A stretch of 64,000 bases of DNA, from positions 3,844,001 through 3,908,000 of the forward strand of contig NZ_CP006704.1 of NCBI RefSeq assembly GCF_000739375.1. Direction: 5' to 3'. The translations under genes and the position numbers were made by a program. The notes beneath the pieces are model-generated. The model searched no databases and was not told where the DNA came from. It saw only the letters and a program-made list of their open reading frames with translations. The DNA comes from Comamonas testosteroni TK102. Lineage in GTDB: Bacteria > Pseudomonadota > Gammaproteobacteria > Burkholderiales > Burkholderiaceae_C. Within the stretch, counting starts at the first letter, position 1; each line of letters begins with the position of its first letter. Positions 4,431-51,246 of this stretch are shown here, piece by piece.

Positions 4431-4843
4431 GCTTTCCCATCCAGAAATCCGACCAAGAATGGCAAGCCCTGCTGCAGGACAAGGGGGCTGAAACCGCGGC
4501 CTTCCAGGTCACGCGCCATGCGGCCACCGAGCGCCCCTTCACCGGCAAATACGAGCAGTTCTGGGCCGACGGCAGCTACCACTGCGTCTGCTGCGGCAAC
4601 AAGCTGTTCGACTCGCACACCAAGTTCGATGCGGGCTGCGGCTGGCCCAGCTTTGACCAGGCCGTGCCCGGCGCCATCACCAATATCGTGGATCGCAGCC
4701 ACGGCATGGTGCGCACCGAGACGGTGTGCAGCAACTGCGGCGCTCATCTGGGCCATGTCTTTCCCGACGGTCCCACCGACACCGGACTGCGCTACTGCAT
4801 GAATTCAGCCTCGCTGGATTTCCAGGGTGAACACCAAAAATAA
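4427..4843 (+). CDS. msrB: Peptide-methionine (R)-S-oxide reductase
   Basis: MsrB reduces the R epimer of methionine sulfoxide in proteins. The 138 residues include both zinc CxxC pairs (CVCCG and CSNCG), the substrate loop GCGWPSFDQ, the [10 protein letters not shown] motif and the catalytic cysteine in [11 protein letters not shown]. Length is typical for a single-domain MsrB. The start codon overlaps the selO stop, and no promoter can fit between them. No signal peptide is seen, so it should act in the cytoplasm. Confidence 0.97.
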
Positions 4844-45351: not shown

Positions 45352-45658
45352 TCCGAGACGCCAATGCAGCCCTCAAGTCAGGAAACCCGCCCGGGTGCGC
45401 AGCCTGGAGCAAAAACTGCCGCAAACACTAATAGAAGTCGCATATCGCCTATTCATTGACTGGGAAGCAATATTTTTCATGCCTTGGCTCGCCAAGTCTT
45501 CACCCAAACTGGCTAAAGGAAAACCCAGCCTAGAAGACTGGACCACATTGCCGTTCACGAGACTCACTCCAAACGACAACTGCCTACAAACATCTGGTCC
45601 CAGACGAAGGCTTCCACGGGATTGGTGTCACGGCAACATGCTCTGACACAATCGCACC

Positions 45659-45913
45659 ATGACCGATGAATCGCCGATCCACATCGCCCACAAGCGCGTC
45701 TGCCAAGCCTTCCTGAGGCACTGGAAGGCCCACGACAACGCCTACCCCAAGCTGATCAAGATGCCGCCGGAAGCATTGCGGCAGTTCAACATCGTCAACT
45801 CCTTGGGCAAGCCCAATGAGCTGTGGGGCGTCCCAATAGAAATCGCCCCCAACACCACGGGCGTGATGATTGCGGTCGATGGGACGGCAATGCCTTTGGT
45901 CGAGGGCTATTGA
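45659..45913 (+). CDS. Small protein of unknown function (84 residues)
   Basis: MTDESPIHIAHKRVCQAFLR begins a soluble, compact-looking protein with KMPPEALRQFNIVNSLGKPN and ELWGVPIEIAPNTTGVMIAV. No signal or membrane part is seen. Its last 17 codons are repeated with a few changes at 47360-47410, beyond the membrane protein gene. The 300 bases before it (45352-45658) hold only weak open frames. The family is unknown to me. Confidence 0.55.
   Translation: MTDESPIHIAHKRVCQAFLRHWKAHDNAYPKLIKMPPEALRQFNIVNSLGKPNELWGVPIEIAPNTTGVMIAVDGTAMPLVEGY
45861..45913. repeat. Direct repeat, left copy (gene 3' end)
   Basis: GCGTGATGATTGCGGTCGAT onward to the TGA is repeated at 47360-47410 with about five changes in 52 bases. 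The two copies bracket the DUF4010 gene. Confidence 0.85.
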
Positions 45914-46096
45914 GGGAGCGTGCAGGCTTGACCCCTCCTCCGTCACGCGGAGGCCTTAGATAGAGATTTAGGCGTCTTACGATCCAGCTCTTATTGCTTT
46001 CGGCGTCATCTCGTACTCAACTATGCTGCGTAGTAGTAGCTGAGGCGCAGTCCCATCAATCGGACGAGCCTTACTCACATCGAGAGGTTGAGACTT

Positions 46097-47332: not shown

Positions 47333-47359
47333 TGCGGACTGATCATCAGCGATGTGGTG

Positions 47360-47410
47360 CGTGATGATTGCGGTCAATGGGACGGAAATGCCTTGGGTCG
47401 AGGGCTACTG
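47360..47410. repeat. Direct repeat, right copy
   Basis: Diverged second copy of 45861-45913, including the stop codon (TGA at about 47408). Nothing of the gene body is present, so it is a 3' remnant. Confidence 0.85.
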
Positions 47411-47464
47411 ACAGACCGCAGTTGCTCCTCTGCTACATGCCTTCACATAGGAGGAATGAGAAAG

Positions 47465-48103
47465 ATGAGAGCTTTTCAGATCGCGGCCATTACCGGCGCA
47501 TGCATTGTTCTTGTAGGGTGCGGCAGCACGGTTCGCTCGCAGGTGTCCGCGTTTCATGAGCTCGATGCGGTCAAAGGCTCAACCTTTGCCATGATTCCCT
47601 ACCCGGAACAAAAAGCTGATCTGGAATACAGGACATATGCAAAGGCCCTGGCTTCTGGCTTGACCAAAGCTGGGTTGCTTGAGACAAACCTGTCAAATGC
47701 TAAATACGCGGTGCTGATGAACTACAGCATCGACAACGGCAAATCCGAAATCTCGTCTGTACCCATCATTGGCCAGACTGGTGTCGCCTCATCAACCACC
47801 TACGGGCAAGTGAACCGCTCCGGCAGTTTCTCGGCAACAACATACAACACACCAACCTACGGCATCGTTGGTGCGACAACCAGATCAGACACAGTATTCA
47901 CACGCCAGCTCACTGTAGACATCGTTGACGCCAACGAGAAGGACGCCGATGGAAAGTATCGCCGTCTCTATTTAGGCAAAGTGCAAAGTCGTGGTGCTGG
48001 TGGTCAGATCGCGCCCGTCATGCCGTACATGATTGAGGCTTTACTGCAGGACTTTCCAGGGAAAAGTGGACAAACCAAAACTGTAGATCTCACAGTGCAC
48101 TGA
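47465..48103 (+). CDS. DUF4136-like lipoprotein
   Basis: A 212-residue lipoprotein with the lipobox VLVGCGS (cysteine at about residue 19). The body resembles DUF4136 proteins: FAMIPYPEQKADLEYRTYAK, ALASGLTKAGL, YAVLMNYSIDNGKSEI, and RQLTVDIVDANE followed by KYRRLYLGKVQS. AGGAGG lies 10 bases before ATG 47465, and 47456 is a less likely start. Proteins of this type sit in the outer membrane; their function is not defined. It is a single gene, convergent with a phage-like pseudogene. Confidence 0.82.
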   Translation: MRAFQIAAITGACIVLVGCGSTVRSQVSAFHELDAVKGSTFAMIPYPEQKADLEYRTYAKALASGLTKAGLLETNLSNAKYAVLMNYSIDNGKSEISSVPIIGQTGVASSTTYGQVNRSGSFSATTYNTPTYGIVGATTRSDTVFTRQLTVDIVDANEKDADGKYRRLYLGKVQSRGAGGQIAPVMPYMIEALLQDFPGKSGQTKTVDLTVH

Positions 48104-48107
48104 GACT

Positions 48108-48883
48108 TCAAACAGGCTTACGCCCCACATAAGCTGCGCCGATCATCCCTGCAGCGCGCTCCCCAAACCTCCCCCACAGCGAATTGCTCGAGGAATTGGC
48201 TGCGATCTGGTTCTGATTGATCTGGCTGTATGTATTCGCAGCCCCAGCTAGCCCGGCCTGGGCGCCCGCGTATCCTGAATTCAGAATCCCCTGCCCGCGC
48301 TCGTAGCCGCGCCCAGTCCAGCATTGGCGCTGCCCACAGCGCCGGCGCCCAGTTGGGATGCGATAGAGGCATTCGTGCCCTGCGCGCTGGCAATATTGCG
48401 CCCAAGGTTGGCAGCGTCCATGCGTCGAGCGTAGCCCTGCTGCTCCACCGCTTTCATGGCGGCATTCGCCGCGCCGGCCTTGGCCTTGGCTTTGGCCGCG
48501 CCAATGTCCATGGAGCCCTGTAGCGCCATCGCCTTGCCGCTGGCTGGATTCACACCAGAGCGTTCCATCGCGCGCATCGTGGCGCCGCGCTGGGCCGCGA
48601 TGCAGGTTTCCACATCGGCGCTCGCGGCTGCCGCCTCGGCTGCGCGGCGCTCCGGGGTGTCATAGGCCTGAGCATCTGCCACCAGCTTCTGCTCGAGCAG
48701 CCGATAGGTGCTTGTGTAGTCCTCGTAGCCCGCCTGCGCCACCTTGTTCTGCAGGTTCTGCGCTTCCAGCTGCGAGCGGGATACCTTGTCGGCAATCGCC
48801 GTGGCCGCAGCGCGTTCATCGGCTGTCTCGCCGTAAATCTGCTTGGCCCAGTCCAACTGCTCCTTGGACAGCTGCGCCTGCAT
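48108..48883 (-). pseudogene. Phage-like virion protein, frameshifted
   Basis: From ATG 48883 the minus strand reads MQAQLSKEQLDWAKQIYGET, an alanine-rich helical body (ASGKAMALQGSMDIGAAKAK), and is cut by a stop at 48281. One frame over it continues as GQGILNSGYAGAQAGLAGAA and SSSNSLWGRFGERAAGMIGA to a stop at 48108. The joined product (about 255 residues) has the composition and motif style of internal virion or DNA-transfer proteins of podophage-like viruses. Upstream codons (QNAAAL) are also open, so the N-terminus may be cut too. The phage assignment is by composition, not by a search. Confidence 0.65.
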
Positions 48884-48911
48884 CAGCGCGGCCGCGTTTT
48901 GCCAGATCCTG

Positions 48912-48935
48912 AGCCACCTTTCAAGGTGGCTTTTT
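48912..48935 (+). terminator. Terminator hairpin module
   Basis: AGCCACCTT / AAGGTGGCT with a two-base loop, then TTTTTC. It belongs to a scattered set of similar hairpins between here and 62.6 kb. Confidence 0.85.
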
Positions 48936-49051
48936 CGTTGGAAAAACGGCTGCGAATGACGCCCCGCAGTTCATTGCTGACGTGATCCGTTTAAGGGCAT
49001 TAAAAGGAGTACTGTGGTGTGAGACGGCCTATCTTGGACCGCCAGCATAGA

Positions 49052-49067
49052 CCGGAGGTCTATATGT
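49052..49067 (+). promoter_or_regulatory. Shared start-region repeat, copy 1
   Basis: CCGGAGGTCTATATGT contains the Shine-Dalgarno GGAGG and the ATG. With the preceding bases it forms a perfect hairpin ATAGACC-GGA-GGTCTAT (49047-49063) that hides the ribosome site. Confidence 0.8.
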
Positions 49068-49282
49068 CTTTCATCGACAAAACCATCTTCAACATCCGCT
49101 CCCGGCTTCCCGCCGTGAAACAGGAAGTCGATTCCCGGACGGTGCCGGATGACGACCGAATCTTTCACACGCCATTTCAAACGGATGCACAGCTGCAGGA
49201 GGAATCTCCTGAGCAGATGCTGCGCAAAAAAACGAACCGTCTTTTGCTGCAAGCGGTCCTCAACAAAATCTCTGCCGCTTGA
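49064..49282 (+). CDS. Small protein A (72 residues) with shared leader
   Basis: MSFIDKTIFNIRSRLPAVKQ opens a charged soluble protein with DDDRIFHTPFQTDAQLQEES and a helical KTNRLLLQAVLNKIS end. No known domain. The start region is the 16-base repeat with an ideal GGAGG. It is first of three tandem small genes with the same leader. Phage or mobile origin is likely from the context. Confidence 0.7.
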   Translation: MSFIDKTIFNIRSRLPAVKQEVDSRTVPDDDRIFHTPFQTDAQLQEESPEQMLRKKTNRLLLQAVLNKISAA

Positions 49283-49294
49283 GCAAGCATCTGA

Positions 49295-49310
49295 CCGGAG
49301 GTCTATATGT
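49295..49310 (+). promoter_or_regulatory. Shared start-region repeat, copy 2
   Basis: Identical 16 bases to the copy at 49052. Here the stem is GACC-GGA-GGTC (49293-49303), four pairs. Confidence 0.8.
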
Positions 49311-49486
49311 TTTCATTACTTGGCTACAAGCGTCAGTCCGAGTTCTGGCGTGATATGTGGGTGATGCTCCTCGAGCCGATTTCACAGATTCAACCCATCG
49401 AATCCAGTCTCGATCCACCACTCGCACCGACACCAAAAGCCCCACAGCCCAGCTCCGAAGCACCTGCTGTCAACGACAAGGTGTGA
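49307..49486 (+). CDS. Small protein B (59 residues) with shared leader
   Basis: MFSLLGYKRQSEFWRDMWVM begins an amphipathic helix that could bind the membrane, followed by a proline-rich tail (DPPLAPTPKAPQPSSEAP). No known domain. It is below common length cut-offs but has a strong ribosome site and shares its start region with genes A and C. Confidence 0.7.
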   Translation: MFSLLGYKRQSEFWRDMWVMLLEPISQIQPIESSLDPPLAPTPKAPQPSSEAPAVNDKV

Positions 49487-49533
49487 CAGTACCACACGGA
49501 GACGCAGCGAGCCCGTAGCCCGCGCGTGTCAGT

Positions 49534-49549
49534 CCGGAGGTCTATATGT
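49534..49549 (+). promoter_or_regulatory. Shared start-region repeat, copy 3
   Basis: Identical 16 bases to the copies at 49052 and 49295. The upstream side (AGTCC) pairs less well, so the hairpin is weaker here. Confidence 0.8.
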
Positions 49550-49728
49550 CAGTAAACCGCATCCCATCTTCATTCCTGAAGGTTTGGAGAACAGTCAGAC
49601 GAGTCTTCGCCAGAGGCGAGCCACTCCCCAGTCCACCCAACATCGAGCAGTGCGGACCTCCTGAAAAAAACAAGCGGAGGCAAAAAGAGAAGCAATCGCG
49701 CATGCACCATAGCTATCGTTACTGGTAG
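49546..49728 (+). CDS. Small protein C (60 residues) with shared leader
   Basis: MSVNRIPSSFLKVWRTVRRV is a basic amphipathic segment, followed by a proline stretch and a very basic end (EKNKRRQKEKQSRMHHSYRY). No known domain. The protein is strongly cationic. It ends about 20 bases before another hairpin (CCACGA/TCGTGG at 49750). Confidence 0.65.
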   Translation: MSVNRIPSSFLKVWRTVRRVFARGEPLPSPPNIEQCGPPEKNKRRQKEKQSRMHHSYRYW

Positions 49729-49776
49729 CTACAGTGCTCGACAGTCCTCCCACGATTTCGTGGTTTCATTTTCAAC

Positions 49777-49800
49777 AGCCACCTTCCGAGGTGGCTTTTT
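49777..49800 (+). terminator. Terminator hairpin module
   Basis: AGCCACCT-TCCG-AGGTGGCT then TTTTT. CACGGAG and an ATG follow within 35 bases, but the frame there is short. Confidence 0.85.
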
Positions 49801-50041
49801 GGTGCACGGAGATCTCGAGATGTGAGCGTTCGGCCAGCATGCGACATGCATGTGCCTTCCCCCGCAGGGCTCTAACGGGGCCATCCGGTGTGACCACTCG
49901 ATCAGGTACGGCAGTTCAGGAATGGGCCTGGGCTGGCGGCAATCAGGAGCACGGCGCTTGCGTCTTGGCAACAGTGACCACACCAGATGGTTCTACCTCC
50001 TTTGGTGTAAGACGAGCTCCTATTGATCGCCCTAAACGCGT

Positions 50042-50180
50042 CATGCAGAATTCGACCCCATCTACCTGTTACGCCGGGCCTGGGATATCTCCCCCTCCCT
50101 TTCTGACCTCTCCCCAGGCGCGACCCGAAAGGTCACCGGCTCTTTATTCAAGCCCGCAGCAAACGCCAGCGGGCTTTCTT
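50042..50180. repeat. Diverged 120-140 base direct repeat, copy 1
   Basis: GCAGAATTCGACCCCATC, GCCGGGCCTGGG, CCCAGGCGCGACCCGAAAGG and a terminator hairpin (AGCCCGC / GCGGGCT, 50151-50175) are matched in order by 62473-62613. The hairpin ends each copy. Divergence suggests old duplication or two related insertions. Confidence 0.75.
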
Positions 50181-50231
50181 TTGTCATCACCAGCGCTTGC
50201 GAAAGACACTGAGTGTTGATCAGTGAAATGC

Positions 50232-50792: not shown

Positions 50793-50823
50793 GCCCGCAG
50801 CAATCGCTTGCGGGCTTTTTCTT
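50793..50823 (+). terminator. Terminator hairpin module with downstream RBS
   Basis: GCCCGCA / TGCGGGC with a nine-base loop, then TTTTTCTTT and AGGAG at 50831. The following frame (KLLLAAQWALTGFGLFCLVG, one helix) lacks a start codon and looks like a decayed small membrane gene reaching about 51000. Confidence 0.8.
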
Positions 50824-51023
50824 TGCCTACAGGAGACCAAGCATTCGACTCCATCCAGATCCCACACCACAAAGCTGCTGCTCGCCGCGCAATGGGCTCT
50901 CACCGGCTTCGGCCTCTTCTGCCTAGTCGGTGCGGCCGTGATCATGGCGCTCACACCCGAAGCCTGGCCCCTCTATGCATTCAGCTTTGATAGCTGCGCG
51001 CGATTATTGAACAGGAGATCCTC

Positions 51024-51221
51024 ATGCTCAAGACGATTGTTGACTCCGCGCTAGTCATCGTTGGCGCCCTGCTTATCGTGGCCTGGCTGACTGTGCCTGA
51101 TGCCCAAGCCGATGACCCCCAAAGCATCACCCCAAGCCTGCGCGACGAGTTCGCCTTCCCGGGCATGCACACCGAGTGGCTGGACGGCAAGACTGTGCAA
51201 TGCCTGAAAGTGCCGCCGTGA
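51024..51221 (+). CDS. Small exported or membrane protein (65 residues)
   Basis: MLKTIVDSALVIVGALLIVA is a hydrophobic N-terminal helix, followed by WLTVPDAQADDPQ and a short polar end (DEFAFPGMHTEWLDGKTVQC). It may be cleaved after AQA. AGGAG lies 7 bases upstream. A terminator follows 26 bases after the stop. No known domain; the spacing pattern matches the phage-like modules around it. Confidence 0.7.
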   Translation: MLKTIVDSALVIVGALLIVAWLTVPDAQADDPQSITPSLRDEFAFPGMHTEWLDGKTVQCLKVPP

Positions 51222-51246
51222 CTTCGGCACCCACCTGTTTCCATCC

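Follow-up and report, generated by a model that had tools for sequence, protein, structure and literature searches.

A repeated start region marks a family of tiny genes dispersed across the genomes and prophages of Comamonas

The window analyzed here, a stretch of 64,000 nucleotides from Comamonas testosteroni TK102, carries a compact array of three small genes on its forward strand. Gene 1 (49064-49282) encodes 72 amino acids (MSFIDKTIFNIRSR...), gene 2 (49307-49486) 59 amino acids (MFSLLGYKRQSEFWRDMW...) and gene 3 (49546-49728) 60 amino acids (MSVNRIPSSFLKVW...SYRYW). The window contains three exact copies of the 16-mer CCGGAGGTCTATATGT, at 49052, 49295 and 49534 on the same strand, and, as the first-pass annotation had reported and our searches confirmed, each copy contains the GGAGG and the ATG of a separate one of these reading frames. 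The window holds no further site at up to three mismatches, and three matches were reached in one of 100 shuffles (shuffle mean 0.14). In the whole genome ten places match at up to two mismatches, the exact ones being the window's three only. Folding also reproduced the graded stem strengths that had been described: copy 1 forms seven pairs (ATAGACC/GGTCTAT) with GGA as the triloop at 49047-49063, at -6.5 kcal/mol when folded alone, the core of copy 2 has four pairs (GACC-GGA-GGTC, 49293-49303), and copy 3 (49534-49549) has a weak stem, the bases preceding its GGAGG pairing upstream in a wider context.

This hairpin, H2, is preceded in copy 1 by a second one, H1 (49025-49041), with one bulged base on its 3' side. 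Upstream of both lies a promoter-like block, GTTTAAGGGCATTAAAAGGAGTACTGT, at 48989-49015, whose TAnnnT occupies 49010-49015; seven nucleotides past it, the A at 49022 is the likely transcription start, as this base is nearly invariant in front of H1 among relatives. A hairpin followed by a T run, terminator-like to the eye, is found on both sides of the array, before the unit at 48912-48938 and behind gene 3 at 49777-49803. The two are direct repeats of each other (AGCCACCTT..AAGGTGGCTTTTT), and a terminator role is suggested by their sequence. Copy 2 lacks a promoter-like block; the array is probably read from the single block at 48989-49015, with copies 2 and 3 as internal cistrons. Inspection by eye found no leader peptide in a consistent frame. 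On the left the array is adjoined by a cut-down phage virion structural gene on the reverse strand (48281-48883, phrog_8003, E 3e-35).

A pattern for the block (GTTTN9AAANNGNGTANNGT), with neither H1 nor H2 in the query, was found at 24 places in 18 of 53 Comamonas genomes; the reversed pattern, run as a control, gave 4. Twenty of the 22 distinct places lead into a two-hairpin leader and a reading frame of 47-74 amino acids, and the remaining two (L146, L166) look decayed. The order of parts is the block GTTT-N9-AAA-N2-GnGTAnnGT, about six bases, the near-invariant A, H1, three to five bases, H2 and an ATG or TTG. Note that the GnGTAnnnT part of the block is invariant by construction in our alignment table. 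H1 consists of seven or eight pairs and one bulged base, H2 mostly reads TAGACC-GGA-GGTCTA, and the identical 15-mer TAGACCGGAGGTCTA is present in 14 of the 20 intact units found through the block. The block is confined to the units in this sample of the genus and would serve as their promoter. Of 53 units, 15 are followed and 5 preceded by a predicted terminator with a perfect stem. A T7-like promoter, considered for its likeness to the T3 promoter, was dropped, the block fitting a -35/-10 layout with TAnnnT; T7-type RNA polymerase (PF00940) was matched in 0 of 3 genomes by a weak search whose positive control also gave 0 of 14.

The repeated start region is thereby recognized, from sequence comparison, as the mark of a family of tiny genes spread through Comamonas genomes and prophages. 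Among IMG/VR contigs the exact 16-mer occurs in 18 stretches and marks the start of a small reading frame in 17, the exception being L014; three of the 17 frames run off the end of the retrieved stretch. TAGACCGGAGGTCTANNTG occurs in 11 stretches of the GTDB genome set; the nine from Comamonas each hold a unit, while the two from elsewhere (L073, L075) have no small reading frame behind the motif. The placement beside start codons, which the first-pass annotation had put forward as a check, thus holds across Comamonas and its prophages. A covariance model of the leader, R1, built from 24 leaders, matched 70 places in 25 of the 53 Comamonas genomes, with up to six per genome and 28 genomes without a match. 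It further matched two of six genomes of another genus of the family (g19), four of 399 genomes in a sample of the family and, under stricter filters by which weak members may be missed, one of 399 in a sample of the order, the window's own. In that genome we also observed two further diverged units (L180:3488-3571 and 4665-4750, G000:C1 near 3355000) and others near 2254260 and 3335563. A looser viral pattern gave 16 stretches, four of which are units; the covariance model matched none of the remaining 12 (L039-L050) at E up to 1. INPHARED phages yielded no match for the window array, gene 2 or the protein of a further locus, L028, whose leader stretch matched 22 records in terminator-like pieces only. 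At gathering scores Rfam returned two tRNAs in the window and no leader model, and for 48890-49820 two hits, both far below gathering scores. No paper on the small-gene family was found in the open-access literature.

The unit genes encode 45-78 amino acids, the window's three 59-72, and as pN/pS lies between 0.15 and 0.54 in 11 homologue groups, indicating purifying selection, these small frames are coding. Two main protein families, FW and DVDS-DD, stand behind the same leader, with a 47-residue protein as a third type (L079, L125). The FW family is anchored by one invariant tryptophan in 24 aligned members; window protein 3 entered this alignment via its close relative L076:3879. The three window proteins had been called unrelated, which does not hold: proteins 2 and 3 belong to this one family, their genes being paralogues as judged from the alignment, and protein 1 is a member of the DVDS-DD family. 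Profile searches gathered 35 and 31 protein clusters for FW and DVDS-DD, none with a precomputed Pfam domain, and the organisms named in them are all Comamonas; two of the FW entries come from compost metagenome. No match was obtained in Pfam, PHROGs or NCBIfam for the window's three proteins and that of L028, nor in PADLOC for these four and two more small proteins. At L140:4952-5037 an intact leader is followed by a reading frame that fits neither family and resembles a frameshifted FW gene. Small genes in tandem paralogues, structured leaders and prophage links would also suit type I toxin-antitoxin loci, where a small toxin is held under antisense control, but the proteins are charged and rich in proline and glutamine, none of 98 distinct ones has a 19-residue stretch with a mean hydropathy of at least 1.6 (maximum 1.10), and no antisense gene was seen by eye. 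We regard this explanation as improbable, and a hydrophobic type I toxin was set aside on the hydropathy scan.

The leaders themselves were compared for covariation. In 24 leaders, gathered with H2 in the query (as H2 was part of the query or model for many leaders overall), double-sided changes were found in six of seven H1 pairs, and H2 was nearly invariant. In 36 more varied leaders, double changes affect all seven H1 pairs and two of seven H2 pairs, 84.1% of the cells pair as compared to 29.5-39.4% in slid versions, and there are 26 double-change cells against 11.0 ± 2.9 in shuffled ones. The control slid by +1 gave nine pairs and 23 cells with double changes, yet only 33% of its cells pair. 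The stems are thus conserved in related loci and H1 covaries. Of the two outcomes that the first-pass annotation had named as refuting, a motif at random positions relative to start codons and stems not conserved among relatives, neither occurred. Single leaders fold only slightly better than their shuffles (z -0.46 to -3.37, 10 sequences), most of the H2 stem is lost in L145, L150 and L154, and the internal cistrons L077:6201 and L079:5518 are without it. In the set found without H2 (20 rows, including the decayed L146 and missing L165), the pairwise difference per site is 0.61 and 0.54 for the arms of H1, and in H2 it is 0.23 for the TAGA and 0.18 for the CC of the 5' arm, 0.04 for GGAGG and 0.38 for TCTA. 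Judged by these differences, what is conserved in H1 is its shape, and in H2 its sequence as well. A kissing contact between the H1 loop and GGA, for which TCY occurs in 17 of 40 distinct loops against 11.2 ± 2.6 in shuffles, was set aside, the signal being too weak.

A near-perfect palindrome such as H2 might also be a DNA operator, TAGACC-N3-GGTCTA, bound by a dimeric repressor such as prophage CI, and S24/CI-type repressors are encoded near several units. The palindrome is however fixed in position relative to the ATG, the adjoining H1 covaries as RNA does, and of the 27 IMG/VR stretches with TAGACCGGAGGTCTA, 20 lie at units and the seven others (L051, L052, L054, L056, L057, L059, L061) are not Comamonas prophage promoters as far as seen. 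The operator, which we consider very improbable, was set aside on this placement.

According to the first-pass annotation, the hairpin conceals the ribosome site. The GGA lies in the loop, and fold prediction does not support concealment: GGAGG is unpaired with a median probability of 0.50 over 54 leaders, compared to 0.20 for controls with the 35 upstream nucleotides shuffled, and to 0.32 for a set of 18 ordinary genes of the window that have a ribosome site, scored over four bases instead of five. In a genome rich in G+C, H2 may shield the site from worse pairing partners. An RNA thermometer, suggested by a ribosome site in a moderate hairpin, would open on warming, but predicted access at copy 1 goes from 0.59 to 0.49 between 20 and 60 °C; we set it aside and give it next to no credence. 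The proposal of a common translational switch fared less uniformly. In its strict form, H2 would block the ribosome until opened or locked by a shared trans factor, an RNA-binding protein or a small RNA. The H2 letters are indeed kept while H1, five bases off, drifts, a contrast that local gene conversion does not explain, and some changes in H2 are paired (GGACC/GGTCC, AAAGACC/GGTCTTT); site access nevertheless exceeds that of the controls, falling below a leader's own control in 10 of 54 cases, and -6.5 kcal/mol is little for a lock. We therefore hold the strict form to be unlikely. The masking part of the proposal finds no support in these predictions, and its trans factor survives as a possibility: as the letters of H2 are more strictly kept than those of H1, a common factor, protein or RNA, that reads H2 gains in probability, and we see it as a real prospect short of even odds.

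For such a factor CsrA/RsmA would be an obvious candidate, given a hairpin whose loop places GGA at the ribosome site. This layout agrees with PMC7652899, in which CsrA/RsmA leaders present GGA in a hairpin loop with the site over the Shine-Dalgarno sequence, RsmA stabilizing a Shine-Dalgarno hairpin. Against this, PF02599 was matched in none of the 53 Comamonas genomes (the control matched 3 of 14 named genomes, including E. coli), the consensus ACA is absent and the loop comprises three bases only. Barring a diverged CsrA-like protein, this refutes control by CsrA/RsmA, and we attach hardly any probability to it; a search of the open-access literature found no paper on CsrA in Comamonas.

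The units occur singly or in tandem arrays, in prophage-like as well as ordinary chromosomal places. They are found in IMG/VR contigs, and at some places, L078 for one, inspection by eye showed no phage gene; among neighboring reading frames (56 scanned of 396), S24 peptidases, CI-like proteins and rve transposases were each met five times. The window's array lies within a block of about 1 kb (48901-49885) that recurs in L025, L110, L142 and L143 at 89-92% identity in different surroundings, with further units in front. The right flank of the array is present in seven of 53 genomes, and the content of this shared site varies: three genes are present in the window, two units in G441, where both flanks match, and one unit in G445; G420 shows one weak match (19.6 bits), and G444, G442 and G432 have none. 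The left flank of G444, G445 and G442 rests on a short piece that recurs elsewhere too. This comparison of sequences indicates gain and loss of units at a single chromosomal site. The idea of a gene cassette thus finds support: the units behave like cassettes and bring their own start region with them, promoter-like block included. Other elements were observed in the vicinity. A protein of 169-174 amino acids with a hydrophobic N-terminus is encoded beside eight compared loci, often divergently and about 130 bases upstream (among them L072:453-962, L078:6256-6765, L141:5977-6486; L078 and L114 are the same place), and its L072 copy had no Pfam or PHROG match and one sub-threshold NCBIfam hit. 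Window segments 45640-45916 and 47359-47478 are a small dispersed repeat that relatives carry at several places, L074 having it twice, and segments 49877-50183 and 50793-51222 recur near arrays in L025, L142 and L143, and partly in L115.

Taken together, we favor, with a probability of roughly 0.55, a lineage-specific family of portable, moron-like expression units for small genes in which H2 acts as a hairpin for tuning and display. Transcription would start at the A just before H1, and the mRNA would then begin with a 5' hairpin able to shield it from decay. H2 would present the GGA of the ribosome site in its triloop and tune initiation without blocking it, and in the window one promoter would serve three cistrons. 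A more far-reaching extension, rather doubtful at present, is a Comamonas-wide regulon whose small proteins evolve fast and are encoded in prophage and island arrays, with one dedicated promoter type and one RNA-binding factor reading the ACC-GGA-GGU hairpin; this would be a CsrA-like control without CsrA, spreading together with its target genes. Units are present in about half of the Comamonas genomes sampled, and no library we tried can name them. With a constant leader and a changing protein they offer a clean test system for how mobile genes stay expressed in new places, and through them an RNA-binding factor may be found in a genus without detected CsrA.

Several known systems resemble these units in part. 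Stem-loops of the ompA type at the 5' terminus stabilize mRNA, and here too a hairpin stands at or near the predicted 5' end, although a second one holds the ribosome site. The mRNAs of type I toxin-antitoxin systems likewise have a small gene behind a structured leader and occur in tandem copies, whereas the proteins here are hydrophilic. CsrA/RsmA leaders likewise place GGA in the loop of a hairpin at the ribosome site (PMC7652899), and differ from the present leaders, which have a triloop and no ACA, in a genus where no CsrA was detected in 53 genomes. Morons and prophage accessory loci have their own promoter and often a terminator, lie beside phage genes and are dispensable for the phage, and PMC7067206 places such loci near the repressor gene; the units have a promoter-like block, and some of them terminator-like hairpins. 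Unlike morons, the units also occur outside recognizable prophages, and one promoter-like block and leader is common to many of them with different proteins.
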